A DNA stretch of 64,000 nucleotides from Pikeienuella piscinae (lineage in GTDB: Bacteria; Pseudomonadota; Alphaproteobacteria; Rhodobacterales; Rhodobacteraceae): contig NZ_CP049056.1 in NCBI RefSeq assembly GCF_011044155.1, positions 2,108,001 through 2,172,000 on the forward strand, read 5' to 3'. Positions within the stretch are counted from its first letter, which is position 1. Each line of letters opens with the position of its first letter. The notes beneath the pieces are model-generated. The model was given only the letters and a program-made list of their open reading frames with translations, was not told where the DNA came from and did not search any database. Made by a program: the position numbers and the translations under genes. Positions 27,877-48,674 of the stretch are shown one piece after another.

Positions 27877-27961
27877 GCGTTTTCGGATCAATCCGGATCA
27901 AAACCAATCGCCATTCGGCCGCCCTTCAGGCGAATGGCGATTCAATCCGATCCGAAAACGC
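27877..27961. repeat. Nested inverted repeat (palindromic element), possibly interspersed
   Basis: Outer arms GCGTTTTCGGATC (27877-27889) and GATCCGAAAACGC (27949-27961) are perfectly complementary. Inner arms AATCGCCATTCG (27906-27917) and CGAATGGCGATT (27931-27942) are too, around a 13-base loop. It begins just after one stop codon and covers the last codons of the convergent glycosyltransferase gene. GCGTTTTC-type palindromes recur in many alphaproteobacterial genomes; here it may also end transcription from both sides. Confidence 0.8.
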
Positions 27962-30290: not shown

Positions 30291-30498
30291 TGGCCCACCC
30301 GGGATCCATCTGGCCGCGCGCTCACGGTCCGCCGCGGCGCCGGCGAGATATGCGCGTATCCGCCGAATTTTGCAACGCGGCGAGGCGAACTCCCAACGCC
30401 GGCGCCGCACGGCGATGATCCGCCGCTTTGACAATGGCCCGCGCGCTGGCTAGCCGTTGCGGCGGAAGCGGCGCCCGGTGGCGCGGCCGGAGGCGAAT

Positions 30499-31299
30499 AT
30501 GGCGCGAAAGCAGGCGGTCACGAAACCCCTCCCGAGCTTCGCGAACATCCGCGTCATTGTTGCGCTGATGATGCGCGAGATGTCGACCCGTTACGGCCGC
30601 TCGGCCGGCGGCTACATGTGGGCGTTGCTCGAACCGGTTGGCATGATCGCGATCATGTCGGTGGTTTTCGGCATGGCGATGCGCTCGCCTTCGATCGGCA
30701 GCAGCTTCCCGCTGTTCTTCGCCACCGGCTTCCTCACTTTTCAGTTCTATACGGAGCTTTCGTCGTTCTCGTCGAGCGCGATCAACATGAACAAGCCCCT
30801 GCTGACCTATCCGCGGGTGACGCCGATCGATGCGATCCTGGCGCGGTTCCTCCTGCAGTTCTTCACGCTGGCCACTTCGGCGATCGTCATTTTCTCCGGC
30901 ATCATCTATTTCGAGGAAATCCGCACGATCTACGATTTCACCGCGATGCTGAAAGCGGTGGGCTACGCCAGCCTGCTCGGGCTCGGCGTCGGCGCGACGA
31001 ACACGGTGATTTTCACCTTCGTGCCGACCTATCAGAACGTCTGGAAGATCATCAACCGGCCGATGTTCCTGATTTCCGGCGTTTTCTTCACCTATGAGGA
31101 CATGCCGCGCACGGTGCAGGATATCCTCTGGTTCAACCCGGTGATGCACGTCATCGGGTTGATGCGGCGGGGCTTCTACCCCAGTTATCACGCAACCTAT
31201 GTCTCCGAGTTCTATGTCGGCGGCATGGCGATCGGATTTCTGACGATCGGGTTCTTTCTGGTATACTCCAACAAGACCGCCCTGATCGAAACGCGGTGA
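30499..31299 (+). CDS. kpsM: Capsule polysaccharide ABC transporter permease, KpsM-like
   Basis: A 266-residue ABC-2 type permease with six hydrophobic segments and the family's N-terminal amphipathic part (MMREMSTRYGRSAGGYMWALLEP). The ATG at 30499 has GGAGG at proper spacing; a TTG further upstream (30457) is unlikely. It forms the membrane channel for the lipid-linked capsule chain with the ATPase encoded 10 bases downstream. Confidence 0.93.
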   Translation: MARKQAVTKPLPSFANIRVIVALMMREMSTRYGRSAGGYMWALLEPVGMIAIMSVVFGMAMRSPSIGSSFPLFFATGFLTFQFYTELSSFSSSAINMNKPLLTYPRVTPIDAILARFLLQFFTLATSAIVIFSGIIYFEEIRTIYDFTAMLKAVGYASLLGLGVGATNTVIFTFVPTYQNVWKIINRPMFLISGVFFTYEDMPRTVQDILWFNPVMHVIGLMRRGFYPSYHATYVSEFYVGGMAIGFLTIGFFLVYSNKTALIETR

Positions 31300-31309
31300 G
31301 CCGACGACG

Positions 31310-31969
31310 ATGATCGAACTGATCGACCTCTCGAAAGAATATCGTTCCGGGTCTATCCGGCGAACGATCGCGGAGAACATCAACCTGACGATCCCGCGCG
31401 GGCGGAGCCTCGGGCTGCTGGGGCGGAACGGTGCGGGAAAATCGACGCTGCTGCGCATGATCGCCGGCACGGTGGAGCCGGATTCGGGGCGCATCATTCG
31501 CCACGCGACGGTCTCCTGGCCGCTCGGATTCGCCGGCAGCTTTCACGGCATGATGACCGGGGCGCAGAACGTCCGGTTCGTCGCCCGCATCTACGGGCGC
31601 GACCCGGACATGCTGATCGCCTATGTCGCCGATTTTTCCGAACTCGGCGAAGCGCTTTACATGCCGGTCAACGCCTATTCCTCCGGCATGCGCGCCCGGC
31701 TCGCCTTCGGCGTCTCGATGGGAATCGATTTCGACTACTATCTGGTGGACGAGACGACGGCGGTCGGCGACGTCAATTTCAAGAAGAAATGCCGCAAGGT
31801 CTTCGCGGAAAGACTGGCCGCCTCTGACGTGATCATGGTCTCGCACGCGACCGCGACGCTTATCGATTATTGCAAGGCCGGCGTGGTGCTGGAGGATGGA
31901 AGGGTCACCTATTACGAGAATATCGCGGATGCGGTCGAAGCGCATGAAGCCAATATGGCGATGCGCTGA
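31310..31969 (+). CDS. kpsT: Capsule polysaccharide ABC transporter ATPase, KpsT-like
   Basis: A 219-residue ATPase with Walker A GRNGAGKST, signature YSSGMRARLAFG and Walker B YYLVDETTAVGD. The degenerate signature and the short length without a carbohydrate-binding C-terminal domain are typical of KpsT/BexA rather than Wzt. It is co-transcribed with kpsM. It ends five bases from the convergent capsule gene. Confidence 0.94.
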   Translation: MIELIDLSKEYRSGSIRRTIAENINLTIPRGRSLGLLGRNGAGKSTLLRMIAGTVEPDSGRIIRHATVSWPLGFAGSFHGMMTGAQNVRFVARIYGRDPDMLIAYVADFSELGEALYMPVNAYSSGMRARLAFGVSMGIDFDYYLVDETTAVGDVNFKKKCRKVFAERLAASDVIMVSHATATLIDYCKAGVVLEDGRVTYYENIADAVEAHEANMAMR

Positions 31970-31974
31970 ACGCG

Positions 31975-33207
31975 TCAGCGCGCCCAGTCGGGGAACGGCC
32001 GGCGGGTAAGCCGCTCAACGGCCTCGGCCACGGCGCGCTTCCGGCCCTCCGGATGAAAGAACGAACCCTTGATCTGGATCTCGCGGGCGAGCGCGCGCAC
32101 CAGCGCCGCCTCGAGCGTGTGATCCACCGGCTCCGGCGCCGTCCAGAAGCTATCCAGAGACCCCTGATGCGTAAGACCGGGCATGTCGTAGACCGCGCTC
32201 CCCAGCACCTTCACCGGCGTCCCGGCCCGTATGCTGTGCAGCCCGACCGTAGAGTTGGCCATCACCGCGCCCTTGGCGTGACGGATGAGGAGGCCGAGAT
32301 CGCCGCCCCGAATCAGATCGACGCGGCCGCCCAGCCCACGCCGCCGGGCCATTTCCGGCACGCGGCGGCGCCAGTTCAGATAATCGCTGTCCAGGGGGTG
32401 CATCTTGACCACCAGCCGCCGCGTCGCCGGCGCCGCGCGCGCCATCGAGTCGAGCACCTCCTCGATCATCTCCGCGTAATCGCCATAGGGCGAGGAGGCC
32501 CGGATCTGATAGTCCTGCGCAAGTTGCATGGCGAAGAGCGTGTAGTCGGAATCCGCCGTCGCGCAGCGCGCCTGAACGGCCCGCGCCGCCCGCTCGTCCC
32601 GGCGTTCGCTCAGGAGCGTCGCGATCCAGTGATAGTAATGGGTGAAGATCGAAAACGGCAGATCCAACCGGTAGTGCGGATAGAATCCGAAACCGGCGAT
32701 GGTGGACGCATACATACCGATATCCGCCATCGCCTCAGCGATAAAACCGCTGGGATAGAGCGCCGCGTCATCGTGCGGATCATCCGGCCCGGGCGCGCCA
32801 AGCCGGCGAATGACGTCCGGATCCTTCGGAAAGCGCGAGAACGCTCCCATCGCTTCAGGCTCCAGCGTCAGCCAGTTCGGCCGGAGATACCCGAACTCGA
32901 TCGTCCAGGCGCGGACGCCGGCGGCTTTCGCCGCATCCAGCGCGTCGATATTCCAGGGATGCCGGTCGGCGTAGTAAATGACGTCCGTGATTCCCTCGTC
33001 CGCCAGATAGGCGTCGAGCCAGGGTCGCCAGCCCGCCTTCGGCCCGCGGTAGGAGCGCGCCCCGAGTCGCGGCCAGTAGAGCCAGTCCTGTCCGGAAAGC
33101 CGCACCTTGGCGACGGCGTGTCCTTCGGCCTTCAGCGCGTCCGCGAGCTGCAGCCAGAACTTCGAGTGATGCCCTTGCAGGAACAGGAAGCTCTTCCGTT
33201 CAGTCAC
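31975..33207 (-). CDS. Capsule polysaccharide synthesis protein (KpsS/KpsC superfamily), copy A
   Basis: A 410-residue member of the Capsule_synth family, whose E. coli members KpsS and KpsC add the Kdo linker to the lipid anchor. Landmarks are FLFLQGHHSKFWLQLADAL at the start, TIEFGYLRPNWLTLEPEAMGA, QLAQDYQIRASSPYGDY, VVKMHPLDSDYLNW and the end GAVMANSTVGLHSIRAGTPVKVLG. The GTG at 33207 is chosen because it starts right before the first beta strand and has GGAG upstream. It is divergent from a clear paralogue across 138 bases. Confidence 0.85.
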   Translation of the reverse strand: MTERKSFLFLQGHHSKFWLQLADALKAEGHAVAKVRLSGQDWLYWPRLGARSYRGPKAGWRPWLDAYLADEGITDVIYYADRHPWNIDALDAAKAAGVRAWTIEFGYLRPNWLTLEPEAMGAFSRFPKDPDVIRRLGAPGPDDPHDDAALYPSGFIAEAMADIGMYASTIAGFGFYPHYRLDLPFSIFTHYYHWIATLLSERRDERAARAVQARCATADSDYTLFAMQLAQDYQIRASSPYGDYAEMIEEVLDSMARAAPATRRLVVKMHPLDSDYLNWRRRVPEMARRRGLGGRVDLIRGGDLGLLIRHAKGAVMANSTVGLHSIRAGTPVKVLGSAVYDMPGLTHQGSLDSFWTAPEPVDHTLEAALVRALAREIQIKGSFFHPEGRKRAVAEAVERLTRRPFPDWAR

Positions 33208-33345
33208 GCGCCGCGCTCCACGATGTTCTCTGGCCCCCGCCACGTCTTGGCCTCTCGCATGGAAGCGGGGGGTGAGGCAAGGCGCGCCCGGCTTGGCGCG
33301 GGGCATCGCCTGTGCTTTTGTCCGCCGCGCATGACAGGAGAGACG

Positions 33346-34596
33346 ATGAGAGATGACCGGGGCCCTGACGAAGAGCGCGTCTTCCTGCTGTTGCAGGGGC
33401 CGATGTCGTTCTTCTTCACCTATCTCGCCACCGCGCTCCGGGCGCGGGGCGCCTCCGTCCGGCGGGTCCTCCTCTGCCCCGGCGACCGGCTCTTCTGGCG
33501 CGGTCCAGGCGCCGTCTCCTATCGCGGACGGCCCGAGGGATGGGCGCCGTGGCTGCGCGCGCTGATCCAGGCGGAGCATGTGACCGATATCGCCTGCCTC
33601 GGCGACGGCCGGCGCTGGCATGAAGAAGCCGTGCGCATCGCGGAAGATCTCGGGCTCCGCGTGCATGTCGTCGAGCAGGGATATCTGCGGCCCGGCTGGC
33701 TGACGGTGGAGCCAAGCGGAACCGGTGGGCGGAGCCGCTTTCCCCGCGACTGGACCGCGATCGAGGCGCTCGCCGGCCCGGCGAAGGCGCCCCCCCGTTT
33801 CAGGACCAGCTTCTTCGGCTACGCGGCGATGGACGTCGCGTTCAACCTGGCGAACATTTTCACGTCATGGGCGCTCTATCCGCATTTCCGGCTGCATACG
33901 CTGGACCATCCAGCGCGCGAATGGGCCGGGTGGATATTTAACAAGGCGCTACCCTTCCGGCGGCGCCGGCGTGAGCGCAGGGCGATGGAGGCGCGGATCG
34001 CGGAACACCGGGGCCCGCTCTTCGTTCTTCCCCTGCAACTCGACACCGACTACCAGATCCGCCTTCACGCCCCGCCGGGCGGCGTTGCGGCGCTGCTGCG
34101 GCGAACGGTGCTCTCTTTTGCGGATCACGCGCCCGCCGACGCGCTGCTCGTGGTGAAAATCCACCCGCTCGACCATGGCGAGGCCGACTGGCGCGCGGTC
34201 ATGGGCCGCGCCGCCGAGGCGGCCGGGGTCGCGGACCGTTGCGTCTTTCTCGATGGCGGCGACCTCGACGCTCTTCTCGGGCGCGCTGCGGGCGTCATCG
34301 TAGCCAACTCCACCGTGGGATTGACGGCGCTCGGCGCGGGCGCACCGGTCGTCGCCCTCGGGACGGCGATCTATGATCTTCCCGGCCTGACCTTTCAGGG
34401 CGGGTTGGACCGGTTCTGGACCGACGCCGCGCCGCCCGACTCGGCGCGGCTCGATTCACTGATCCGCGCCCTTACCGCGACAATCCAGGTGCCGGGCGGA
34501 TTTGACGGGTCCGGCGCGCGGCCGGGCGCCGCCGCGATGGCGGAGCGGATGCTGGCGCCGCCTCCGTGGAACCCTGCGGAGGCGCCAGCGCGATGA
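33346..34596 (+). CDS. Capsule polysaccharide synthesis protein (KpsS/KpsC superfamily), copy B
   Basis: A 416-residue paralogue of the divergent neighbour, sharing FLLLQGPMSFFFTYLATAL, VEQGYLRPGWLTVEP, LQLDTDYQIRLHAPPGG, VVKIHPLDHGEADW and the closing VIVANSTVGLTALGAGAPVV. It probably transfers Kdo or another sugar to the lipid or linker. AGGAGAG lies between a possible ATG at 33331 and the chosen ATG at 33346. Its stop overlaps the start of the SDR gene (ATGA), so lipid-modifying and glycosyl transfer steps are coupled. Confidence 0.87.
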   Translation: MRDDRGPDEERVFLLLQGPMSFFFTYLATALRARGASVRRVLLCPGDRLFWRGPGAVSYRGRPEGWAPWLRALIQAEHVTDIACLGDGRRWHEEAVRIAEDLGLRVHVVEQGYLRPGWLTVEPSGTGGRSRFPRDWTAIEALAGPAKAPPRFRTSFFGYAAMDVAFNLANIFTSWALYPHFRLHTLDHPAREWAGWIFNKALPFRRRRRERRAMEARIAEHRGPLFVLPLQLDTDYQIRLHAPPGGVAALLRRTVLSFADHAPADALLVVKIHPLDHGEADWRAVMGRAAEAAGVADRCVFLDGGDLDALLGRAAGVIVANSTVGLTALGAGAPVVALGTAIYDLPGLTFQGGLDRFWTDAAPPDSARLDSLIRALTATIQVPGGFDGSGARPGAAAMAERMLAPPPWNPAEAPAR

Positions 34597-35348
34597 TCCG
34601 CTCCATGGTCCTCACCGGCGCCTCCAGCGGCATCGGAGCCGCTCTCGCCGCCGCCTACGCCGCGCCCGGTATCTCCATGCTGCTGATCGCGAGAGATAAA
34701 TCCCGACTCGAGGCGACCGCCGACGCGGCGCGTGCCGCTGGCGCCGATGTGGAGACCGCGACGGTCGACGTGACCGACGCGGAAGCGCTCGCGGCGGCGA
34801 TCCTCGACTTCGACGACCGTCGCGGCGTCGATCTCGTGATCGCTAACGCTGGCGTGGCCCTCGGCGGGTTGCCCGAGCCGGCGGGGCAATCGCGCCGGCT
34901 GATCGAGATCAACCTGCAGGGAACGCTCAATACGCTAGAGCCGCTGATACCGCGAATGATCGCCCGCGGCGCCGGCCAAATCGGCGTGATCAGCTCGATC
35001 TCGGCGATCCGGCCTTCCGCCGATCTGCCAACCTACAGCGCGGCGAAAGCCGGCGTCAGGGCCTATGGCCAAGCGATCCGGTCGGGCCTGCGGCGCCACG
35101 GGATCGCGGTGACGGTGATTTGCCCCGGCTTCGTCACGTCGCCGATGTCGAGCCGTCATCACGGGCCGAAACCATTCGAGATAACGGCAGAAAAGGCGGC
35201 GCGGATCATTCGGCGCGGCATCGGGAAGCGGCGCGGCGCGCTGACCTTCCCCTGGCCGTTCTCGGTCATGGTTTTCCTCGGCAATCGTCTGCCGCCATTC
35301 CTCTCGGACTGGTTCGAGCGCCGTTACGCGGCGCGGATCGGAGATTGA
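34593..35348 (+). CDS. rkpH: Short-chain dehydrogenase, RkpH-like (3-ketosphinganine-reductase-like)
   Basis: A 251-residue SDR with GASSGIG, NAG (VIANAG), catalytic Ser (ISSISAI) and YSAAK. A hydrophobic C-terminal stretch (FPWPFSVMVFLGNRLPPFL) resembles membrane-associated SDRs such as 3-ketodihydrosphingosine reductase. The start at 34593 overlaps the preceding stop as ATGA. Rhizobial K-antigen loci (rkp-1 region of Sinorhizobium meliloti) contain an SDR, RkpH, beside an AONS-like RkpG and the synthase RkpA, the same set as here. Likely step: reduction of the ketone made by the AONS enzyme; inference. Confidence 0.83.
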   Translation: MIRSMVLTGASSGIGAALAAAYAAPGISMLLIARDKSRLEATADAARAAGADVETATVDVTDAEALAAAILDFDDRRGVDLVIANAGVALGGLPEPAGQSRRLIEINLQGTLNTLEPLIPRMIARGAGQIGVISSISAIRPSADLPTYSAAKAGVRAYGQAIRSGLRRHGIAVTVICPGFVTSPMSSRHHGPKPFEITAEKAARIIRRGIGKRRGALTFPWPFSVMVFLGNRLPPFLSDWFERRYAARIGD

Positions 35349-35354
35349 GAAACG

Positions 35355-35375
35355 GCGCGGCAGACCCCGCCGCGC
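35355..35375. terminator. Hairpin between convergent rkpH-like and rkpG-like genes
   Basis: A perfect 7-bp GC stem GCGCGGC/GCCGCGC with a 7-base loop fills the 27-base gap between the two stop codons. No T-run follows, so it may be a weak or rho-assisted bidirectional stop. Confidence 0.5.
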
Positions 35376-36728
35376 TCAGCCTCTGAGGCTGGCGAACAGG
35401 TCGACATCCTCCAGTTCGCGCACCACTTCGGCGGTCACGTCCACGGCGCGGTCGATCTGTTCTTCAGTATGGTCCGCGGTCAGGAAGAACCGGATGCGCG
35501 CCTGCTGCTCCGGCACCGCCGGGAAAATGATCGGCAGAGCATTCACGCCACGCTGGAATATCCTGTCCGCCGCAACCACAGCGCGCGGGCTGTCGCCGAT
35601 GATCACCGGCGTCACGGCGTAACCTTCGGTCAGGCCGATATCGAGCCCGGCCGCCTTCGCCCGATCGCGGAATCTCAGCCCGTTGGCGCGCAGACGCGCC
35701 ACGCGCTCCGGCTCCGCCAGCATCGCCTTCACCGCCGCCGTCGCGGTCGCCGCGACCGGCGCGGGAATGCCGACGGAAAATACGAAACCGGGCGCCTTGT
35801 GCTTCAGATAGGCGATCAGCGCCTCTGATCCGCAGATATAGCCGCCGCAAGAGACCAGGGTCTTGGAGAGCGTGCCCATCCAGATCTCGATCGTCTTCGG
35901 GTCGACCCCTTGAAGTTCCGCGATGCCGCGCCCGGTCTCGCCGAGCACGCCGAAGGCGTGCGCCTCGTCGACCATCAGCCAAGCGTCATGGCGCGCCTTG
36001 ACCTCGACAAAGCGGGCGAGATCAGGAAGGTCGCCATCCATCGAATAGAGCCCCTCGACCACCACCAGCACCCGCTCGTAGCGGCCGCGGACGCGGGAGA
36101 GCGTTTCGTCCACCCATTCGAAATCGTTATGTGGAAAGGTCAGTCGTGCGGCGCCGGAAAGGCGCGCGCCCTCTGAGATCGAATTGTGAATGAGCTGATC
36201 CATCAGGATCAGGTCTTTCGGCCCCAGCATCGCGCCGATGGTCGTCACATTGGTGGCGTGCCCGGACACCATCGCAACCGCCGCTTCAACGCCGTACGCC
36301 TCCGCCAGCGCCCGCTCCAATTCGCCATGATAGGGCCGCTCGCCGCCGACGAGCCGGGAGGCGTTCGCCGAGACGCCCCATTTCTCCGCCGCCTTGACCG
36401 CGGCGCGGCGCACGTCCGGATGGCCGCCAAGGCCGAGATAGTCATAGGAGGCGAAGTTGATCCGCTCCTCGCCGTCGATCACGCAGAGAGCGCCGGCGCG
36501 ATCCTCGATCTCGCGGAAAAACGGCGTACCAATACCCAGCGTCTGGCCAACCGCCTCCTGAAATCTCATCTGTTCGAAAATCGGCAAGGTCGAGAAGTCG
36601 AACGCCTTGGTCGGTTTGCCGCCGACTGGCTTTGGCGGCGCCGCGACGCGCGCGCCGCGCGCGCGGGCTTCGCGCACCTTGCGAAGCCGGTCGACCAGCG
36701 CGCTTCTATCCTTCTCCGCGGCCCCCAT
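35376..36728 (-). CDS. rkpG: Alpha-oxoamine synthase (PLP), RkpG-like
   Basis: A 450-residue PLP enzyme of the AONS/serine palmitoyltransferase group. The Schiff-base lysine is K289 (GTLSKTLVSCGGY), and the cofactor aspartate and stacking region are DEAHAFG (254-260) and H182/S184-type residues in LIHNSISEGARLSG. It condenses an acyl thioester with an amino acid, losing CO2 to give an aminoketone. An extra N-terminal basic segment (about 1-50) is absent from BioF. A GTG at 36746 overlaps the stop of the synthase gene (GTGA) and is an alternative start; I prefer the ATG at 36728 after GGGG. Its coupling to a PKS carrying an ACP suggests the ACP-bound chain is its substrate. Confidence 0.88.
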   Translation of the reverse strand: MGAAEKDRSALVDRLRKVREARARGARVAAPPKPVGGKPTKAFDFSTLPIFEQMRFQEAVGQTLGIGTPFFREIEDRAGALCVIDGEERINFASYDYLGLGGHPDVRRAAVKAAEKWGVSANASRLVGGERPYHGELERALAEAYGVEAAVAMVSGHATNVTTIGAMLGPKDLILMDQLIHNSISEGARLSGAARLTFPHNDFEWVDETLSRVRGRYERVLVVVEGLYSMDGDLPDLARFVEVKARHDAWLMVDEAHAFGVLGETGRGIAELQGVDPKTIEIWMGTLSKTLVSCGGYICGSEALIAYLKHKAPGFVFSVGIPAPVAATATAAVKAMLAEPERVARLRANGLRFRDRAKAAGLDIGLTEGYAVTPVIIGDSPRAVVAADRIFQRGVNALPIIFPAVPEQQARIRFFLTADHTEEQIDRAVDVTAEVVRELEDVDLFASLRG

Positions 36729-36742
36729 GCTCAAAACCCCTT

Positions 36743-39700
36743 TCACTCCGCCTTCATGCCTTCCGCCTTCTTCGCGAGTTTCTCCACCACCTGGCGGTCC
36801 TTTTCGTCGATCCGGCCGGAAACGTGCTGCGAGACGACGGCGCTCACCGCCGCGGTCTCCGCCCCCGCCGCGCGCCCTCTCGCTTCGTCAAGCAGTTTCT
36901 TGGCCAGATCGGCGAGCCCGACCCCGTCCGAGAGCGACATCAGCGGCAGCGAGGCGCCGATCCGCTCCTCCACGGCCATCTTCAGGTCGACCGCCATGAG
37001 GCTGTCGAAGCCCATTTCGGTCAGCGGCCGGCGCGGGTCAAGCTCGCCCGGCGGCTGGCGAAGGATGCGGCCGGTTTCCGCAGCCAGAAATTCGATGATC
37101 GCCTTCAGCGCCGAAACATCGTCGAGGCCTTCGATCATCGCCTGGATGTCGAGCGCGCCCTCGGCCCCGCCGGCGGCGTCGCGCGCCGTCTCGACCCGTT
37201 CGAACAACGGCGTGGCGAGCAGCGGAAGATCGGCCGCCAGCAATCCCCAACGCACCGGCGCGAAGGTGACGGCGACATCCGGCGCGCCGGCGGCGAGGAT
37301 CACGTCGAGGCCCTGCAGCGCCTCGGTCGCCGTCAGGAGCGCGCCGCCCATCCGCTTCGCCAGTTGCTCGCGGGTTTTCTCCTCGCGCGCCAGATAGCCG
37401 ATATCGCCGATCGGCCCCCAGCCAACGGCGAGCCCCGGGCGGCCCGCCGCCCTCCGCGCCGCCATCAGGCTCTCCAGGTAGGCGTTGGCGGCGACATAGG
37501 CCGCCTGGCCGGGATTGCCGAACAGCGTGGCGACGGAGGAATAAACGATGAAATGATCCAGCCCCACATCCCGCGTCGCCGCATCGATCAGCGCCGCGCC
37601 GGCGATCTTCGGGCGCATCACCGCCTCCAGCCGCTTTGGATCGAGACTCTCGAACAGCGCGTCGTCAAGCACCATGGCGGAATGAATGACGCCCTTCAGC
37701 GGCGTGCCTTCGGTCTTGATCTCTGCCATCAACGCCGCGACGGCCTCCGGATCGGCGGCGTCGGCGGCGACGCAGTTGACCGTCGCGCCGGCCTTCCTCA
37801 TCGCCGCGACCGTGCTTCGCCCCTCTTTGCCCACGACGCCGGAGCGCGAAGCGAGCCAAAGCGTACGCACCCCCTTGCCGACGAGCCAGGCGGCCGTCTC
37901 AAGCCCGAAACCGCCGGTTCCGCCGACGATCAGCCATGCCCCTTCGCCAATCGGCCGGGTAGCGACGGGCTCCGCCGCCGGAGCGCTCGGCGGGCGGATC
38001 ACGATCTTGCCGACATGGCCGGACTTCTGCATCAGCCGGAAGGCGTCGACCGCCTCGTCGGATTCGAACACCTGCGCCGGCGGCGGCGTGAACGCACCCG
38101 AGGCGAACCCGTCCGCGAGATCCCGGAACAGCCGATCCGCGAGATCGGGACGAGCGGAAAGGAGTTGATCGGCATCCACCCCGAAATAGGTCAGGTTACG
38201 CCGGAACGGGCGCAGGCCGATCGGCGAATTGGCGTAGTAATCGCGTTTTCCAAGCTCGACGAAACGACCGAAAGGCCGGAGACAGCCGAGCGAGCGCTCC
38301 ATCGCTTCGCCGAAGAGCGAGTTCAGGACCACATCGACGCCCTCGCCGCCAGTCGCCGCCATCACCTGATCGGCGAAAGCGAGCGAGCGGCTGTCAAACA
38401 CAGCATCGGCGCCGAGCGCCCTCAGCAGGCGACGCTTCGCCGGCGATCCCGCCGTCGCGATGATCCGCGCGCCGATCCGCCGAGCGATCTGTATCGCCGC
38501 GAGACCGACGCCGCCGGCCCCGCCATGGATCAGCACGGTCTCGTCGGAGCGGAGATTCGCCAACTCCACCAACCCGTATTGCGCGGTTATGAAAATCGTT
38601 GGCACCGCGGCGGCGGTGTCGAAGGACGTGCCCGCCGGCAAGGGCGCCACGGCGCGCGCCGGGATCGTCGCATGGGTGGCGAAGCAGGCCGGGCCGAAAG
38701 CGATCACCTCCTCGCCCGCCTTGCGCCCCGAGGCGGCGCCGGCGCGGCAGACGACGCCCGCGCACTCCATCCCGAGCGTGGCCCCGGCGAACCCGTCCTC
38801 CAGCGCTTCTTCGGGCAAGAGGCCCTGAGCCCACATGACGTCGCGGAAATTCAGGCCGGCGGCGCGGATCTCTATCTCGACCTCGTCCGGGTCCGGCGCC
38901 CGGCGGATGCTCGGCGCCCATTTCAGACTATCGAAGGAGCCTTGCTGGCCAATCTCCAGCACGCGCGCCGCTTCGACGCCGGCGGCGCCGTCCTTCGCGG
39001 CGTCGAAAAGACCCGGCACGGCCTCGACGCGCGGCGCGGCGCGGCCGGCGTCGTCCCAGATGATCTCGCGCTCGGCGGACGGCGCGGCCAGTTCGGCCGC
39101 CAGAAGCTCCACCAACCGTTCTGTATCCATCGCCGGATCGAAATCCGCGAGGCGGATCTCGGGCTGACCGGGCTCGTTCGCCAGCACTCGACCGAGCCCC
39201 CAGAGCGCGGCGTCCGGCGGGCGGCGCGCACCCGCGGCGCCCCCTGCGGCCGGCCGGCCGCCACGGGTGACAAGCCAGAGCCGGGCGGGGCTCTGTGCGG
39301 CGAGCCAATCATGCGCGCGCCCGACGCGGGAAGCGGCCCGGCTCAAATCATCGCCGTCATCGGCGAAGAGACCCGGCAGGAACACGCACTCCCATCCCGG
39401 CTCCAGCCCTTCCGGCGTGTCGCCGACCGCGGCGATGCGCACTTCGCGGCCGATCGCCGCCATCGCGGCTTCGATCTCGCCGGCGGCGGCGATCTCTTTC
39501 GCAGCGCCGTCATGCAGGATGAGGACCGCACCCCGCCGCTCCTCCGTCGTCTCCGCCCCGGAAAGCCGACGCCGGGCGCGGGCGAACAGCGCCACAGCCT
39601 CCGCCGTCTCGACCTTCAGCGGCAGCGCCGCGACGTCGACGAGCCGCGCCTCCGCGAGCGCCGCGCACCAGTCTTCGGCCGGCTGGCGTCGTCCGACCGG

Positions 39701-42700
39701 CGCCTCCGGCGTCAGCGAGCCGGACCACCAATCCCCAGCAACGCCCATCAGCAGGTCGGACATCAGGTCCGGCGCGCGCTCGACGGCGCCGAACAGACCG
39801 CCGGAAAGCATCCCGGAGGCGAGCCGCGAAAGCCCGTCGCGGCCAAGCCGGGAAAGACTGTCGCCACAAATCACCACGTCATACCCGGCCGTAGCCGCTT
39901 CATCGAAGGGCGCGATGCGCAGTTTCGGCCGGCGCGCCGCGATCTGCGAAAGCGTCTCGACCACGCGCGCATCGGGGTCGGTGACCGTCAGCCTCGTCAA
40001 TCCCTCCAGCGCCGCCAGCCGGCGGATCGCCCCGACCGGGGTGGCGCCGACGACCAACGCCTCCAGGCGTCTTTCGGCCGACCAGCCCGCGGCGATATCC
40101 GTCAGGACAATCTCAACCGCGGACCAGACCGCGCGCGCGCCGGGCGTGATATCGGCGGCCGAAGGCGCCGGCGCCGCGTCGAGCAGCCCCGACTGCAGAC
40201 GCGCGGGCAGGTCCGCCTCGAATTTCAGCAGCGCCATCAGGTCGCCGCCGCGCGTCGGCGCTTCCTCCGCCAGCGCCTGCGCAAGCTCCTCCACCGTCGG
40301 ATAGGGACACTCGGCCGCGAGCCGGCCGACGCCCAGCGCCTCGGCGGTGAACGCGCCGTCCTCCTCCAGCGCCAGAAGCGCGCGCGCCAGAAGCGGACGC
40401 GCCGAAGGGTCGAGATCGATCGCCGATGCGATATCGATCCGCATGTCGACATCGGCGAAGCGGCGCGCCATGTCCCAGGCCAGCCGCCGACTCAGCGCAT
40501 CAACGAGCAAGGAGCCGACATCCGGCTCCGGCGCCCGTTCGGCGGCGACCCCGAGGGCCGCGGCCCGCGCCGCAGGATCGGCCCAGCCGGCCGGCACCGC
40601 CGCATCCTCGTCCACGACCGCGAGCCGCGCCAGATCCTGCCGCCAGACCCGGCCGATATCGCGCGCGCCCCGATTGAGCACCACGGATTTGAGGCGCAGC
40701 CCGGTCACCGCGGCGACCAGCGCGCCGTCTTCGGCCAGAAGGTCGATCTCCGCCTCCGCCCCGCGCGGGCTGAGCTTCGCCAGCCGCACCACGGCGCGGG
40801 CGGCGGGCGTCTCCACCGCGTAGAGCCTGATCCGCCCGACCCGGACGGGAAGGAACGCGACCCCGGCGCGCAGCGCCTGGTCGCCGGCCTGCCGCCGGAT
40901 CAGCGGGAAAATGGCATGCATCGCGCCGTCGAGCACGGTCGGGTCGAGCGCCATTCCGTTGACCGGCGCCGGCGCTTCCGTCAGCCGCGCTTCGGCCGCG
41001 ACGCCATTGATCCGCGCCGCCTTGATCCGTTGGAAGGCCGGCCCGTAATTCAGTCCGTACCCATCAAGCGACTGGTAGAGTTGGCGACCGTTCAGTTTCG
41101 ACGCGCCCTTCAGTTCCAGCGCCGCGGGCGCGGGAGCCGAAACCGGCGTCTTTCTGAGGATACCGAATGCGTTCAGTCCCCAGTCCGCGCCAGTCAGCCG
41201 GCGCCGGCTTTCGATCCGGATCTGCCCGTCGCTCTGATCGAAACTGACCCGCGTCTCCACCGCCGCGCCGTCATCGAGCACCATTGGTCTAAGAATCTCG
41301 AACTCAGAAAGCTCGGCGGCGCCGAACACCTCGCGCCCGGCAGCGAGCGCCATTTCGACATAACCGGCGGCTGGATACACCACCGCGCCGTCAATCATGT
41401 GGTCCGCGAGCCAGGGTTGAAGGCCGGTGTCGATCACGTTGCTCCAGACACCCTCGCCCGCCTTCAAGCGCCAGCCGAGAAGCGGATGCACCCCTCCGAA
41501 CCCGAAAAAGTCGACGCTCTCCGGCCCCGGCGTCATCCGGTACGTCGTCGCGCGCCAGGCGTACCCCGGCAATCCGCCGCGATAGGGGATCGGCGCGCCG
41601 AAAAAGCGCGCGTCGTCTATCTTCGCGCCATGCGCCAACGCCCGCGCCGTGATCGAGCGGGCGGTCGGCGCGATGCGCGGATTCTGCTCCAGCGTGGTCA
41701 CAACCGAGGCGCCCCAGCCGAGCGTCTCCAGCGTATCGGAGACGTAGGACTGCAACACCGGGCGCGGCGCGATCTCGACGAAGACACCGCAGCCGAGCTT
41801 GGCCAGCGCGCCCACCGCCTCGCGAAAGCGAACCGGTTGACGAGCGTTACGCCACCAGTATTCGGTGTCGAGCGCGACGCCCGGCGCCTCCCGGCCGCTG
41901 GTCGACGAGACGTAGATCGCATCGCCCTCATGCGGCTCGATATCGGAGAGATCGGCGATCAGCTTGGCGCGGATCGGGTCGATCGCCGGGCTGTGATAAG
42001 GGTAGTCAATATCGAGGAGTTTCGCCGCAATGCGGCGCTTCCGGGCGAATTTCGCGAACCCTTTCAACGAATCCACCGGTCCGGCGATGGTCGAGGAACG
42101 GGGCGAATTGTCACCCGCGACGGTGATGGAGGCGTCGCCGAAATCGGCCAGCGCGGCCTCGACTGCCTCCTCTCCGGCGAGGACGGCGGCCATGCCGCCC
42201 ATGCCTTTCATGAATTCGAGCGCGGTCGAGCGCGTACGGATAAGATGCACCGCATCCGCGAGGCTGAGAACGCCCGCCGCCCAAGCCGCCGCGACCTCGC
42301 CCACCGAATGGCCGGCGACCGCGTCGGGCTTCAGTCCCTCCGCCGCCAGCATTCGGACGACACCGACCTGCACGGCGAAGAGTATCGGCTGCGCGATGCG
42401 GCTTTCGGCCAGCAGATCGCCGAGTTCATCCGAAGCCAGAAGCGCGGAAAGGTCGATGTCCGATTTCGCCGAAAAAAGAGCGGAAACCTCGTCAAACCCC
42501 GCGCGGAAGGTTTCGTTCTCCTCATAAAGGTCGAGACCCATGCCGGCCCATTGCGAGCCGTTCCCGCCAAAGACAAACGCGGTCTTCTCTCCACGTCCGA
42601 CACGCTGGCCGGTGACGCAGGCCGCGGGCACCTGCGGCTCGACGCCTTCCTGATGCGCGGTCAACGCCGCATGAATACCGGTCGCGTCGTCACCGAGCGC

Positions 42701-44191
42701 CACCAGCCGATGCGCCGCGCGCTGACGCCGATGCGCCGCGGCGTTGACCAGGCGGTTCGCTTCGGCGGGCTCGGCCGCGTCGAGCGCCTCGCGCCAGCGC
42801 GCCACCATGTCTTCAAGGCTCTCGCGGCTCGCGGCGCTGATCGTCAGCGCGCGGGCGGGCGGCGCCGCCGGCTGGACCGGGATCTCCGCCGCTTCCGGCT
42901 GACGAAGGACGACGTGGGCGTTGGCGCCCCCGAACCCGAACGAGTTCACCCCCGCGAGCCAGGGCCGCTCCCGCGCCTCGATCGCCACCGATTCGCCGGC
43001 GACTTCGAGGTTGAGATCGTCGAAGGCGATGTTGGGATTCAGTTCGTTGAGATGCAACGAGGCGGGAAACACGCCCTTCTCCAGCGCCATTTGCGCCTTC
43101 AGAAGGCCGACAAGCCCCGAAGCGGGCTCCAGATGACCAAAGTTCGTCTTGGCCGAGCCGATGGCGAGCGGGGTCGCCCGGCGCCGGCCGAACACCTCGC
43201 CGATCGCATGGGCCTCCATCGGATCGCCGACCGGGGTGCCGGTGCCATGGCATTCGAGAAACGCGAGGTCGTCGGGATCGAACTGCAGCTCGCGCCGGAT
43301 CTGGCGCAGAAGATCGGCCTGCCGCTCCGCCGAGGGCATCGCCATGCCGACCGTGCGGCCGTCGGAATTGACGCCCGAGCCGACGATCACGCCGCGCACC
43401 GGATCGCCTGATGCGGCCGCCGCATCCATGCGGCGAAGAACGAAAACCACCGCCCCTTCGGAGCGCACATACCCGTCCGCGGAAGCGTCGAACGCCTTGC
43501 AGCGCCCCTCCGGCGACAGCATCGTCGCGCGCGAGAAGCCGATGAAGGAGAAAGGCGAAAGCAGCGCGTTGACGCCGCCGACGATGGCGGTGTCGATCTC
43601 GCCCGATTTCAACGCCTGCACCGCCTGATGCATGGCGTAGAAGGACGAGGAGCAGGCCGTGTCCACCGTGTAGCTCGGCCCCTTCAGGTCGAGCAGATAG
43701 GAAATCCGGTTCGAGACGATGGAAAGCGTGTTCCCGGTCATGAACTGCGCGTCTACCGAGGCGGGATCGCCGAGAAAGGTGAATGAATGGTCCGAAGCCG
43801 ACGCGCCGACATAGACGCCCGTGCGACCCTCGGAGAGGGTCTCGGGCGTCAGCCCGGCATGCTCGACAGCCTCCCAGACCGTCATCAGCAGGAGCCGCTG
43901 CTGGGGGTCCATCTGCACCGCTTCGCGCGGCGAAACGCCGAAGAAACCCGGATCGAAGTCCCAGATCCCCTCCACCTGCCCCGCCGCGAAAGTGTATGAG
44001 CGGCCAAGCGCAGTCTTGTCGCGGTGATGGAAGCGCGCCTTCGACCAGCGGTCGTCTCCGACTTCGGTTATGACGCAGCGTTTCTGCTCAAGAATGTCCC
44101 AGAAATCAGTTGGCGTCGCCGCCTGCGGGAGGCGGCAGGCATAGCCCGAAATCGCGACGTCATACGTCGTCTTATTGGCTTGCGCGTTCAT
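36743..44191 (-). CDS. rkpA: Highly reducing type I polyketide/fatty acid synthase, RkpA-like
   Basis: A 2,482-residue single-module synthase. KS (about 8-430) has Cys180 (DTACSSS), His315 (HGTGTP) and His353 (KTNFGHLE). AT (about 535-840) has S629 in GHSVGE, with YPYHS near 730 instead of the usual HAFH or YASH. DH (about 900-1180) has H931 (HMIDGAVVYP) and a later LDGAMH. A central region resembles a methyltransferase without a clear SAM glycine motif. ER (about 1744-2065) has HGGAGGVG (1890-1897), KR (2084-2300) has GGTGGFG, Ser and Tyr2232, and ACP has S2397 (GFDSL). There is no thioesterase, so the AONS encoded next probably releases the chain. The S. meliloti K-antigen synthase RkpA has the same layout and size. 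A start at 44191 (MNAQANK) fits. Confidence 0.92.
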   Translation of the reverse strand: MNAQANKTTYDVAISGYACRLPQAATPTDFWDILEQKRCVITEVGDDRWSKARFHHRDKTALGRSYTFAAGQVEGIWDFDPGFFGVSPREAVQMDPQQRLLLMTVWEAVEHAGLTPETLSEGRTGVYVGASASDHSFTFLGDPASVDAQFMTGNTLSIVSNRISYLLDLKGPSYTVDTACSSSFYAMHQAVQALKSGEIDTAIVGGVNALLSPFSFIGFSRATMLSPEGRCKAFDASADGYVRSEGAVVFVLRRMDAAAASGDPVRGVIVGSGVNSDGRTVGMAMPSAERQADLLRQIRRELQFDPDDLAFLECHGTGTPVGDPMEAHAIGEVFGRRRATPLAIGSAKTNFGHLEPASGLVGLLKAQMALEKGVFPASLHLNELNPNIAFDDLNLEVAGESVAIEARERPWLAGVNSFGFGGANAHVVLRQPEAAEIPVQPAAPPARALTISAASRESLEDMVARWREALDAAEPAEANRLVNAAAHRRQRAAHRLVALGDDATGIHAALTAHQEGVEPQVPAACVTGQRVGRGEKTAFVFGGNGSQWAGMGLDLYEENETFRAGFDEVSALFSAKSDIDLSALLASDELGDLLAESRIAQPILFAVQVGVVRMLAAEGLKPDAVAGHSVGEVAAAWAAGVLSLADAVHLIRTRSTALEFMKGMGGMAAVLAGEEAVEAALADFGDASITVAGDNSPRSSTIAGPVDSLKGFAKFARKRRIAAKLLDIDYPYHSPAIDPIRAKLIADLSDIEPHEGDAIYVSSTSGREAPGVALDTEYWWRNARQPVRFREAVGALAKLGCGVFVEIAPRPVLQSYVSDTLETLGWGASVVTTLEQNPRIAPTARSITARALAHGAKIDDARFFGAPIPYRGGLPGYAWRATTYRMTPGPESVDFFGFGGVHPLLGWRLKAGEGVWSNVIDTGLQPWLADHMIDGAVVYPAAGYVEMALAAGREVFGAAELSEFEILRPMVLDDGAAVETRVSFDQSDGQIRIESRRRLTGADWGLNAFGILRKTPVSAPAPAALELKGASKLNGRQLYQSLDGYGLNYGPAFQRIKAARINGVAAEARLTEAPAPVNGMALDPTVLDGAMHAIFPLIRRQAGDQALRAGVAFLPVRVGRIRLYAVETPAARAVVRLAKLSPRGAEAEIDLLAEDGALVAAVTGLRLKSVVLNRGARDIGRVWRQDLARLAVVDEDAAVPAGWADPAARAAALGVAAERAPEPDVGSLLVDALSRRLAWDMARRFADVDMRIDIASAIDLDPSARPLLARALLALEEDGAFTAEALGVGRLAAECPYPTVEELAQALAEEAPTRGGDLMALLKFEADLPARLQSGLLDAAPAPSAADITPGARAVWSAVEIVLTDIAAGWSAERRLEALVVGATPVGAIRRLAALEGLTRLTVTDPDARVVETLSQIAARRPKLRIAPFDEAATAGYDVVICGDSLSRLGRDGLSRLASGMLSGGLFGAVERAPDLMSDLLMGVAGDWWSGSLTPEAPVGRRQPAEDWCAALAEARLVDVAALPLKVETAEAVALFARARRRLSGAETTEERRGAVLILHDGAAKEIAAAGEIEAAMAAIGREVRIAAVGDTPEGLEPGWECVFLPGLFADDGDDLSRAASRVGRAHDWLAAQSPARLWLVTRGGRPAAGGAAGARRPPDAALWGLGRVLANEPGQPEIRLADFDPAMDTERLVELLAAELAAPSAEREIIWDDAGRAAPRVEAVPGLFDAAKDGAAGVEAARVLEIGQQGSFDSLKWAPSIRRAPDPDEVEIEIRAAGLNFRDVMWAQGLLPEEALEDGFAGATLGMECAGVVCRAGAASGRKAGEEVIAFGPACFATHATIPARAVAPLPAGTSFDTAAAVPTIFITAQYGLVELANLRSDETVLIHGGAGGVGLAAIQIARRIGARIIATAGSPAKRRLLRALGADAVFDSRSLAFADQVMAATGGEGVDVVLNSLFGEAMERSLGCLRPFGRFVELGKRDYYANSPIGLRPFRRNLTYFGVDADQLLSARPDLADRLFRDLADGFASGAFTPPPAQVFESDEAVDAFRLMQKSGHVGKIVIRPPSAPAAEPVATRPIGEGAWLIVGGTGGFGLETAAWLVGKGVRTLWLASRSGVVGKEGRSTVAAMRKAGATVNCVAADAADPEAVAALMAEIKTEGTPLKGVIHSAMVLDDALFESLDPKRLEAVMRPKIAGAALIDAATRDVGLDHFIVYSSVATLFGNPGQAAYVAANAYLESLMAARRAAGRPGLAVGWGPIGDIGYLAREEKTREQLAKRMGGALLTATEALQGLDVILAAGAPDVAVTFAPVRWGLLAADLPLLATPLFERVETARDAAGGAEGALDIQAMIEGLDDVSALKAIIEFLAAETGRILRQPPGELDPRRPLTEMGFDSLMAVDLKMAVEERIGASLPLMSLSDGVGLADLAKKLLDEARGRAAGAETAAVSAVVSQHVSGRIDEKDRQVVEKLAKKAEGMKAE

Positions 44192-44408
44192 TTTTGCGTC
44201 CTAACCCCTCGACACTAAAGTAACAACAGGCCCAGCGCAGCAAACGCCAATCAATAACTGCTGCACTCTGAAATCAAATGTCATGTCTCGCCATGTCGAG
44301 TCGCCTGTCCTGACATCGATGGGGCGACGCGTTGAAACCCACGCCTTGCATCCCATCCTCGTTCCACGCCAAGAATCGGTCATATACCGGGAATTCACAA
44401 GGGTGAAG
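44192..44408. promoter_or_regulatory. Divergent intergenic region between rkpA-like and GT2 genes
   Basis: These 217 bases are A/T-richer than the surroundings (especially 44205-44285) and must carry promoters for the leftward lipid operon and the rightward glycosyltransferase. A loose inverted pair ATGTCA (44278) and TGACAT (about 44313) is visible. No confident boxes. Confidence 0.45.
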
Positions 44409-45758
44409 ATGAACGCGCCGGAGAATGACGCATCGCGGTGTTGCGGCGCGGCGCCAGTTTGCGGCGCCGGGCTGCCCGAAGCCGAGAGAATCTGGCGGCT
44501 CGGCCCGGGCGGATCGGCGGCGCCGGCGGGATGGTCCTTCGCGCTCGGTCCTGACGATGCGCTCGCGCCCGGCGCCGGACCGCTGATCGAAGGCGCACCA
44601 GACGACGTTGATGTCGTGATCGCGGACGATCTGACCCGGGGAAGAGCCGACGCGCTGCGCCTGAAACCGTGCCATGACCCGCTCCTCCTGGAGCGAATCG
44701 ATTACGCTGGGCGCGCGGTGTTCTTCCGCGCCAGCGCGCTCGGCGCCGAGGCGCGGTCGGCGCTGGAGGGGGGCGCCGCGCCCTCCGGGCTGATCCGCCC
44801 CGATCACCGCGTCGCTCATCTCCCATACCCCGCCGCGATCCTCGCCCCGACAGACGCCGCCCCGGCCCCGCCGCCGCTTCGCAGCGCGCTCGGCCCGGTC
44901 GCCGCGATCATCCCGAACCGCGATAGCCCGCGCCTGATCCGCGCCGCGCTTCAAGCCGTTCTGGACGAGACGGAGGAGCCGGCGCCAGTCGCGGTGGTCA
45001 TCGACAACGGGAGCACGGACCCGGAGACCCTGACGCTCTATGAATCCATTAGAGCCAATCCCCGCATCCGCATCGAGATGAACCCCGCCCCGTTCAATTT
45101 CGCCGCCATGGTCAATCGCGGCGCGGCGCTGGCGCGCGCCGAGTTTTCCGAAGTCGCCGCGTTTCTTCTTCTCAACAACGACATTGAAGCTCCCGCTCCG
45201 GACTGGCTTCGGCCAATGGCGGAGACGCTGGCGGCGCCCGGTGTCGGCGTGGTCGGCGCGAAACTGCTCTTTGCCGATCGGACAATCCAGCATGCGGGGG
45301 TGATCGTCGGTCATGGCGGCGTCGCCGGTCACGACCTGAAGAGCGCGCCCGAAGACGCGCCCGGCCTTTGCGGCCGGATGGCGGCGCCGCATCTGCGCGA
45401 GGCGGTGACGGCGGCGGCGATGCTGATCCGGACGGAGGTGTGGGACACGCTCGGCGGCTTCGACGCTTCGGCCTTTCCCGTCGCGTTCAACGATGTCGAT
45501 TTCTGTCTTCGCGCCGGAGCCGCCGGCTGGCGCGTGGCGCTCGAGCCGCGCGCCGCCCTCATCCACCATGAGGGGGTGTCCCGGCGCCGCCCGTTCTCGC
45601 TCACTCGGTTCGTGAAACATCAGCGCGAGCGGACGATGCTCCGGTTCCGCCATCACACCATCGGCCGGATCGACCGGTTCGAGAGCCCGTGGCGCGACCC
45701 GGAGCGCCTGACGCCCGTATTCCGGATGCTCAAGAACCTGCCGCCGATGCGCTTCTAG
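44409..45758 (+). CDS. Family 2 glycosyltransferase
   Basis: A 449-residue protein. The C-terminal two thirds are a GT2 catalytic domain: VAAIIPNRDSPRLIRAAL (nucleotide-sugar strand), VVIDNGSTDPET, LLLNNDIEAPAPDWL (metal-binding NND), and AFNDVDFCLRAGAAGWRV (acceptor-side ND/DxD motif). The first 150 residues are variable. The ATG at 44409 is preceded by AAGGGTGAAG; the frame is open from 44283 but that part looks non-coding. Next to the capsule lipid genes it most likely adds a capsule sugar. Confidence 0.86.
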   Translation: MNAPENDASRCCGAAPVCGAGLPEAERIWRLGPGGSAAPAGWSFALGPDDALAPGAGPLIEGAPDDVDVVIADDLTRGRADALRLKPCHDPLLLERIDYAGRAVFFRASALGAEARSALEGGAAPSGLIRPDHRVAHLPYPAAILAPTDAAPAPPPLRSALGPVAAIIPNRDSPRLIRAALQAVLDETEEPAPVAVVIDNGSTDPETLTLYESIRANPRIRIEMNPAPFNFAAMVNRGAALARAEFSEVAAFLLLNNDIEAPAPDWLRPMAETLAAPGVGVVGAKLLFADRTIQHAGVIVGHGGVAGHDLKSAPEDAPGLCGRMAAPHLREAVTAAAMLIRTEVWDTLGGFDASAFPVAFNDVDFCLRAGAAGWRVALEPRAALIHHEGVSRRRPFSLTRFVKHQRERTMLRFRHHTIGRIDRFESPWRDPERLTPVFRMLKNLPPMRF

Positions 45759-48412: not shown

Positions 48413-48674
48413 CTTGGGTCTCCCTTGAAGGTCAGGCGTTTTCCGGCCCCGCTCTTAGCAGAGCGCCGACGGCGCGGCAAAGCGCGTTCAAGCGTCCCGC
48501 AAGGATTGCGCGCGCCCCACGACACACAGACGAAAGCCTTACATTTACAAAGTTTCATCAATTTTGAGCCTTGATTTCGCCAAGGTTTACCTTTACGTCA
48601 CCCTTCAGCGCTCAAGGGAGAGCGCGACATTGTTTCAGGTGAATCGGCGCATAGCGCCTTGTGGGGACGTCAGG
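48413..48674. promoter_or_regulatory. Divergent, partly AT-rich intergenic region
   Basis: These 262 bases separate the leftward ABC operon from the rightward sorted protein. From about 48536 to 48602 the sequence is markedly A/T-rich for this genome (ttacatttacaaagtttcat and following), as expected for a promoter. I cannot assign boxes confidently. Confidence 0.5.

Follow-up and report, generated by a model that had tools for sequence, protein, structure and literature searches.

The stretch of DNA analysed here (the window) comprises 64,000 nucleotides of the Pikeienuella piscinae genome (NZ_CP049056.1, positions 2,108,001 to 2,172,000, forward strand), which is assembled as a single contig of 4.37 Mb, and contains a capsule locus with the gene order GT27, KpsE-like, KpsM-like, KpsT-like, KpsS1, KpsS2, short-chain dehydrogenase/reductase (SDR), alpha-oxoamine synthase (AONS), polyketide synthase (PKS) and GT44. 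The PKS and AONS genes adjoin each other, the SDR gene overlaps that of a KpsS-type glycosyltransferase, the same gene types recur together at capsule loci of other proteobacteria, and the KpsS enzymes of such loci form a subfamily of their own. By analogy, the PKS, AONS and SDR trio very probably makes a sphingoid-type base, and the odds lean towards this base being the lipid acceptor, or anchor, of the capsule; for both parts together with the mechanism set out below, we estimate a probability of about 0.55. The counts of PKS-AONS linkage, the KpsS subfamily, the enrichment of lipoteichoic acid (LTA)-synthase-like genes and the separate canonical serine palmitoyltransferase (SPT) of the host are new here.

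In the proposed mechanism, the PKS would build a long saturated acyl chain which, because the synthase has no thioesterase, would stay on its acyl carrier protein (ACP). The AONS would release this chain through a decarboxylative condensation, with L-serine the most likely amino acid, giving a 3-keto-sphinganine-type base that the SDR would reduce to a sphinganine-like amino-alcohol, and in many relatives an LTA-synthase-like (RkpI-type) enzyme would probably then add phosphoglycerol. RkpJ-type KpsS enzymes would begin the capsule on this lipid as their membrane acceptor, with further glycosyltransferases extending the polymer and KpsM/T/E exporting it. A phosphoglycerol-sphinganine would mimic the lyso-phosphatidylglycerol (lyso-PG) of E. 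coli capsules, as it would have one chain and a glycerol-phosphate head. If this is true, a sphingolipid-like foot made within the capsule cluster replaces the ordinary phospholipid foot known from E. coli; the reading also proposes a function for rkpI and would explain the separate KpsS subfamily of these capsules.

Tight coupling of PKS to AONS and of SDR to KpsS2

The preliminary description of this DNA had claimed a fully reducing, single-module synthase without a thioesterase, tightly coupled to an oxoamine synthase, and this was borne out. The Pfam domains of the PKS lie in the order KS-AT-DH-ER-KR-ACP, with no Pfam match to a thioesterase in the protein, and the expected motifs are present in the KS (DTACSS, HGTGT, KTNFGH), AT (GHSVG), DH (HxxxGxxxxP and DxxxH), ER and KR (NADPH motifs) and ACP (MGFDSL). 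The AONS gene overlaps the PKS stop by 4 nt if it begins at a GTG (35376-36746), or begins 14 bp behind that stop at the ATG at 36728, which is the likelier start. The ATG of the SDR gene at 34593 overlaps the KpsS2 stop by 4 nt (ATGA), confirming the claimed coupling to a KpsS/KpsC-like enzyme, which can now be refined to a KpsS-type enzyme (PF05159). As AONS and PKS are convergent to the SDR-KpsS2 pair, the genes form two transcription units.

The SDR had also been called 3-ketosphinganine-reductase-like, and this stood in part. By sequence it is a classical SDR carrying the Ser-Tyr-Lys set. The more specific assignment to 3-ketosphinganine reductase (KDSR) was not borne out, as no such enzyme was among the best 25 of 204 NCBIfam matches or the best 60 of 141 matched structures.

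The AONS is of the RkpG type

The AONS carries an SKT motif with what we take to be the lysine that binds pyridoxal phosphate, a DEAH motif and a histidine presumed to stack on the cofactor. It falls below the cut-offs of the models for SPT, 5-aminolevulinate synthase (ALAS), 2-amino-3-ketobutyrate CoA ligase (KBL) and BioF, scoring 290.5 (cut-off 640), 268.9 (500) and 206.4 (670) against the NCBIfam SPT equivalogs, and is thus outside canonical SPT; likewise, no AONS-family cut-off is passed by the enzyme of the Pseudomonas plasmid or by the rkpG-position protein of S. meliloti. A tree of 54 AONS proteins set the 49 rows of the RkpG type, the window among them, apart from the SPT, ALAS and KBL rows with support of 99/99. 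The window holds an RkpG-type AONS adjoining a PKS and, with the SDR, a set of the SgaABC type.

That the AONS is instead the BioF or the plain SPT of the organism, with fortuitous PKS neighbours, is scarcely credible. TIGR00858 (bioF) is its best NCBIfam match, and none of the three further AONS-family proteins matched in the genome is of the BioF type, these being an SPT (644.6 bits against a cut-off of 500), an ALAS (591.3 against 338.55) and a KBL (592.9 against 460); but the bioF score of 348.2 bits lies below the cut-off of 426.45, the genome has no BioB over cut-off, a true SPT is encoded elsewhere, the RkpG-type clade is well separated and a PKS adjoins the AONS in 38/38 close loci (below).

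The canonical SPT (G000:C1:3490813-3491967; L025, L076) adjoins an AcpR-like gene, with a YghO-like gene of the ceramide-synthase type about 8 kb off, and from these three genes it is probable that the host also makes ordinary ceramides.

Likeness to known systems

The preliminary description had likened the trio to the Sinorhizobium rkp-1 region (rkpA, rkpG, rkpH, rkpI, rkpJ), and the comparison holds: both have PKS, AONS, SDR and KpsS-type genes, with identities of 51% for AONS (to the rkpG-position gene), 42% for KpsS2 (to RkpJ), 40% for KpsS1, 39% for PKS (to the rkpA-position protein) and 31% for SDR. The S. meliloti record itself does not carry these gene names, which we assign by position. 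As in rkp-1 and wcb-type loci, the window has a mono-modular reducing PKS without thioesterase, and an SDR with a KpsS/RkpJ-type gene; it differs from rkp-1 in that KpsS is present as two paralogues, KpsE/M/T-like genes are linked and an rkpI-like gene is missing, whereas the S. meliloti stretch (L081) does have an rkpI-like gene and shows nothing over thresholds for KpsM/T/E within about 18 kb. The rkp-1 region is reported to be involved in export of K-antigen polysaccharide via a lipid carrier, and to be needed for KR5 antigen; in S. meliloti 1021 at least, secretion of poly-Kdo (Kdo, 3-deoxy-D-manno-oct-2-ulosonic acid) is reported to require it as well (PMC4881576). A need in two different polymers suits a shared lipid rather than a polymer-specific step. 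Such an rkp-1-made lipid carrier or anchor has already been proposed, in passages that state no sphingoid chemistry (PMC3557214, PMC4881576). For ABC-exported capsules, phosphatidylglycerol extended with Kdo has been given as the anchor (PMC11041684, PMC12220298).

The chemistry is suggested by a PKS, AONS and SDR cluster of Pseudomonas fluorescens MYb115, reported in 2025 to make C24-C28 sphinganines, which are lost in sgaA and sgaB mutants; in vitro, SgaB had SPT activity almost exclusive for L-serine (PMC12134224). Compared by gene content, SgaA/SgaB/SgaC resemble the genes of the window, with an iterative PKS adjoining an AONS and an SDR in the same cluster. Among the sequences compared directly, the AONS of a Pseudomonas PKS cluster is 50% identical to that of the window. 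The amino-alcohol lipid predicted by the preliminary description is thus well supported, if indirectly, by the AONS identities, the MYb115 sphinganines and the YghO-like neighbours found in some relatives. The words 'capsule' and 'CPS' do not occur in the main text of PMC12134224, which describes the cluster as secondary metabolism. On a Pseudomonas plasmid (L082), four genes (PhyH, KpsC-like, GNAT and LTA-synthase-like) lie between AONS and SDR, and the MYb115 locus tags RS19800 (AONS) and RS19775 (SDR) leave room for four genes likewise; by this analogy we infer that the MYb115 cluster may itself be a capsule cluster. Joining the sphinganine chemistry to capsule genes would make the anchor directly testable in S. 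meliloti and P. fluorescens MYb115, which are laboratory strains and not pathogens.

The wcb-type capsule clusters of Burkholderiaceae (Caballeronia, L083; Paraburkholderia, L086; name from PMC3908369) share PKS, AONS, SDR and KpsM/T/E-like genes with the window, with KpsS in L086. What they have in addition is an LTA-synthase-like gene, and a deacetylase of the LpxC family, between PKS and AONS. On these capsule plasmids the deacetylase genes lie at L083 16898-17824 and L086 16890-17804, and an amino-lipid may be their substrate. The E. coli group 2-type capsule system (KpsS/KpsC/KpsMTED on lyso-PG or phosphatidylglycerol) shares the KpsS-type and KpsMTE-type genes, while E. coli BL21 differs in having no PKS/AONS linked to its capsule genes. 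Fungal fumonisin and sphingofungin clusters, which presumably also encode an AONS, differ in making fungal metabolites and no capsule. They resemble the window in their PKS-derived sphingolipid-like products and KDSR homologues (cited in PMC12134224). The open-licence literature, judged mostly by titles and the starts of abstracts, yielded no tie of a PKS-made sphingoid base to capsule anchoring.

Linkage of PKS-AONS pairs to capsule genes

Among 385 genomes sampled from the class, 17 had an AONS match at E<=1e-70, 13 of them close (E<1e-130; 14 loci), and matches at E<=1e-90 were found in 23 of 398 genomes sampled from the phylum and in 14 of 198 from the family, own genome included. Named plasmid records with an AONS match include Sinorhizobium, Shinella, Methylobacterium, Pseudomonas, Caballeronia and Paraburkholderia. 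The 38 close loci described below were drawn from class and phylum samples as well as from plasmid and contig matches, the class, phylum and family samples alone being unselected; stretches of up to about 20 kb on each side, often less, were taken, and the window is counted. One pair (G283 and the M. bullatum plasmid locus) is near-identical, so that the counts are not independent. The controls were 13 loci of the class that have a PF05159 match and lack a PKS-linked RkpG-type AONS (twelve at E<1e-45, plus G218), one of whose genomes (G022) has a more distant AONS elsewhere; 12 of the 13 have a KpsS-type match (L172 drops out), and five (L162, L164, L165, L170, L171) extend less than 4 kb on one side.

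A PKS adjoined the AONS in all 38 close loci, with an SDR in 25, KpsS in 20, KpsC in 13, an LTA-synthase-like gene in 16 and a YghO-like gene in two (G159 and G464, beside the AONS); a capsule gene of any kind, KpsD included, was found in 27. The 12 more distant AONS loci, kept apart from these (one, G007, groups with the genome's KBL), had a PKS in three, an SDR in six, a YghO-like gene within 10 kb in five and KpsS in one. Across the class sample, a strong KpsS-type match (E<1e-45) was found in 7/13 genomes with a close PKS-linked AONS compared to 12/372 others (Fisher test, 3e-7, uncorrected for phylogeny), lying within 8 kb of the AONS in all seven. In the family of the window organism, nine close loci (E up to 1.6e-120; two on short contigs) all had a PKS beside the AONS, although in G835, where the contig end truncates it, the match reaches just 71 bits; the fetched stretch held KpsS in five (G780, G803, G907, G757, G844) and KpsM/T/E in four of these. 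Four weaker family matches (E 1e-116 to 1e-108) had neither PKS nor KpsS, but the contrast in KpsS (5/9 versus 0/4; Fisher test, 0.10) rests on too few loci to decide. Two further cases join the activities in one protein: in Planktothrix (L087 11599-19197) the AONS match lies inside a type I PKS coding sequence, giving one polypeptide, and in Streptomyces (L088 11371-16194) a PKS-like stretch shares a coding sequence with the AONS match.

The closest relatives (L013/L014, genomes G744/G745; PKS 76-77% identical, 77% for L014, and AONS 85%) carry the genes as two blocks on different contigs, one of PKS-AONS (with GT44 in L014) and one of SDR-KpsS2-KpsS1-KpsT, the latter extending in G745 through KpsM, KpsE and GT27 (64-79%). 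The contig of L014, the same as that of G841, was read for 40 of its 42 kb and held no capsule gene. Both blocks are retained although separate, with the SDR still beside KpsS2; G744/G745 carry a further KpsS that belongs to the control type (rows L155, L156).

This separation bears on two other explanations. If the anchor were conventional lyso-PG and the PKS-AONS pair lay near capsule genes merely through shared horizontal transfer, then blocks on separate contigs, and the patchy distribution in the family sample, would be expected; yet the linkage is repeated in many branches, both blocks are kept when apart, and SDR and LTA-synthase-like genes are rare in control capsule loci, making this very improbable. 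The PKS-AONS product could alternatively have nothing to do with the anchor and be a lipid or amide decoration of the polysaccharide or an amino-lipid metabolite that is secreted, as the adjoining GT44 in both the window and L014, and the ability of the PKS-AONS block to lie away from the capsule block, would suggest. We consider this improbable, as it is the SDR and KpsS2 that remain adjacent, and as the pair recurs in capsule loci of alpha-, beta- and gammaproteobacteria with glycosyltransferases in the variable slots that were scanned.

A separate KpsS subfamily at PKS/AONS loci

A changed lipid acceptor, as proposed for the sphingoid anchor, predicts that the KpsS enzymes acting on it form their own subfamily, and this was found. 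In a tree of 47 KpsS proteins, 33/33 rows from PKS/AONS loci and 1/14 controls lay on one side of a 99/96 branch, with E. coli KpsS outside. The tree needed 2 label changes compared to 12.2 in shuffles, a value as low being reached in 0/500, and a 39-row tree gave the same pattern. Matches with fewer than 330 aligned residues or closest to KpsC were excluded, and rows came from 14 of 16 control records; the PKS/AONS group includes L153, whose PKS lies on a different contig of that genome, and an Acidisoma locus (L089) with AONS and SDR and no PKS match in 31 kb. Since the group spans alpha-, beta- and gammaproteobacteria, and the controls are alphaproteobacteria and E. coli, locus type rather than taxonomy sorts the tree.

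KpsS1, KpsS2 and the rkpJ-position protein share one clade (21 rows, 100/100), within which KpsS1 and four relatives are a separate lineage (5 rows, 100/99); the two lineages are paired in four related genomes (G745, G780, G803, G907), where the divergent arrangement of the two genes is also kept. KpsS2 has a full-length PF05159 match, scores 190.7 bits against the NCBIfam KpsS model (cut-off 600), is 30% identical to E. coli KpsS and had no match to solved structures at E<=0.01.

A possible phosphoglycerol headgroup

The rkpI-position genes of Rhizobium sullae and relatives encode PF00884 proteins with predicted transmembrane helices and motifs like QSESF, TLRTEF and GDH, which we take to be LTA-synthase/phosphoglycerol-transferase-like; four records annotate such relatives as 'LTA synthase family protein', and the LTA-synthase-like enzymes have two to five predicted transmembrane helices. 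In S. meliloti Ak57 (L081, about 20200-21820), the gene at the rkpI position carries no annotation and is matched as two separate pieces; in this record it is possibly broken. Within 9 kb of KpsS, LTA-synthase-like genes were found in 13/20 KpsS-bearing close loci compared to 1/12 controls (Fisher test, 0.003), and an SDR (>=110 bits) in 14/20 compared to 0/12 (1e-4), both uncorrected for phylogeny, with a YghO-like gene in 1/20 and 0/12; in wider stretches around the AONS, the counts rose to 14/20 for LTA-synthase-like genes and 16/20 for SDR. As an RkpI-like gene is missing from 7/20 of the KpsS-bearing close loci (window included) and from 5/5 capsule loci of the own family, it is a frequent and not a defining member of rkp-1/wcb-type loci. 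A replacement headgroup enzyme was sought in the variable slots of four related loci and rejected, the 10 genes being five glycosyltransferases, one methyltransferase and four without a Pfam match.

The LTA-synthase-like genes fit the +154 Da lipids of MYb115, which were assigned, from mass, as most likely phosphoglycerol sphingolipids (PMC12134224). We tentatively suggest, at somewhat less than even odds, that proteobacteria have capsule anchors of a second class, in which a very-long-chain sphingoid base made by a PKS mimics lyso-PG (in many species a phosphoglycerol-sphinganine built by RkpI-type enzymes) and is read by a dedicated KpsS subfamily, in which case the MYb115 'sphingolipids' would be capsule-pathway intermediates or overflow.

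Observations that weigh against a sphingoid capsule anchor

Several observations count against the sphingoid base being the anchor. The active site of LTA-synthase-like enzymes faces outward and KpsS acts inside, so that the two probably work on opposite membrane faces. The window has no match to an LTA-synthase-like gene or to a two-domain KpsC (the poly-Kdo linker enzyme); the four PF00884 proteins of the genome have sulfatase-type motifs and no convincing match to LTA-synthase-like queries (best E 0.005), and in the own family 0/5 capsule loci have such a gene within 9 kb of KpsS. Over the same distance, the SDR is missing from 6/20 KpsS loci and from 3/5 in the own family, where it is present in two. 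The lone control within the KpsS subfamily (G256) also has an LTA-synthase-like gene, with best AONS matches of E 5e-61 and 4e-53 only. E. coli was rejected as independent support, since spt/acpR/aasR of BL21 lie 40 kb from kpsC/kpsS, without linkage. Finally, 6/13 class genomes with a close PKS-linked AONS have no PF05159 match and 11/38 close loci have no capsule gene in the fetched stretch, some stretches being short; the lipid genes can therefore exist without a KpsS capsule.

The first of these last counts (6/13) also suits a sphingoid base that is not covalently linked to the capsule but aids its assembly or export as a free membrane lipid, or raft component, the capsule itself standing on a conventional phospholipid. 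MYb115 makes free sphinganines, and probably phosphoglycerol-sphinganines (PMC12134224), and a P. gingivalis SPT mutant has less K-antigen and is not null, its authors speculating that sphingolipids may anchor surface polysaccharide (PMC5126122). A free lipid would leave unexplained the KpsS subfamily at PKS/AONS loci, the reported need of rkp-1 for secretion of two polymers (PMC4881576) and the overlap of the KpsS2 stop with the SDR start, and we regard it as the less likely reading. The proposal of the preliminary description that the amino-alcohol lipid replaces lyso-PG as capsule anchor is instead what we infer, as the favoured reading, from the linkage, the KpsS subfamily, the LTA-synthase-like genes of relatives and the need for rkp-1; in the window organism, the capsule would be covalently attached to such a lipid.

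Layout of the locus and other features of the window

A group 2-like ABC-transporter capsule set (KpsM, KpsT, KpsE and KpsS-type) is linked in the window, with matches to the KpsM, KpsE and KpsS models below curated cut-offs (Table 1). The linked KpsMTE genes that the preliminary description had proposed to look for are thus present, at 28956-31969.

Table 1. Genes of the capsule locus, with window positions and the matches on which each assignment rests.
Feature	Position	Strand	Basis and remarks
GT27, glycosyltransferase-like, KpsE end of locus	27942-28949	-	PF13524 21.1 bits, below cut-off
KpsE/BexC/CtrB-like export protein	28956-30434	-	TIGR01010 214.9 bits, cut-off 437.5 not reached
KpsM-like ABC transporter permease	30457-31299	+	PF01061; NCBIfam KpsM model 90.8 bits, below cut-off
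KpsT-like ABC transporter ATPase	31310-31969	+	PF00005; 48% to ABC ATPase of E. coli BL21 capsule region
KpsS1, KpsS-type glycosyltransferase 1, RkpJ subfamily	31975-33207	-	PF05159 203.1 bits; GTG start assumed
KpsS2, KpsS-type glycosyltransferase 2, RkpJ subfamily	33346-34596	+	PF05159 222.8 bits
Classical SDR, proposed 3-keto-sphinganine-type reductase	34593-35348	+	Domain and motif match
AONS, RkpG type	35376-36728	-	Tree and models; GTG start at 36746 possible
PKS, iterative-type, fully reducing, mono-modular type I, RkpA/SgaA type	36743-44191	-	2482 aa; Pfam domains and motifs
GT44, GT2-family glycosyltransferase, divergent from PKS	44283-45758	+	67% in L014, there too adjoining PKS-AONS

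GT27 is 76% identical in L153 and 31-40% in G780, G803 and G907. The 138-bp gap between the divergent KpsS1 and KpsS2 starts (33208-33345) is the likely place of a shared promoter. Elsewhere in the genome, two proteins have partial PF05159 matches (G000:C1:1632557 and 1423606), the former being of 531 aa and resembling the N-terminal module of KpsC. In E. coli BL21, spt stands beside a gene pair annotated lptG/lptF (L027, 43714-44886 and 44921-47067).

Outside the capsule locus, a 1166-aa open reading frame at 11004-14504 (- strand) has flotillin and Band 7/SPFH domains and is long for a flotillin, and another at 15350-17593 (- strand), adjoining branched-chain-amino-acid-type permeases, fuses UPF0261 N- and C-terminal domains to the ATPase domain of an ABC transporter. 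The protein encoded at 48564-49619 (+ strand) ends in a short hydrophobic stretch followed by RARRKAA, which we take to resemble a PEP-CTERM-type sorting end.

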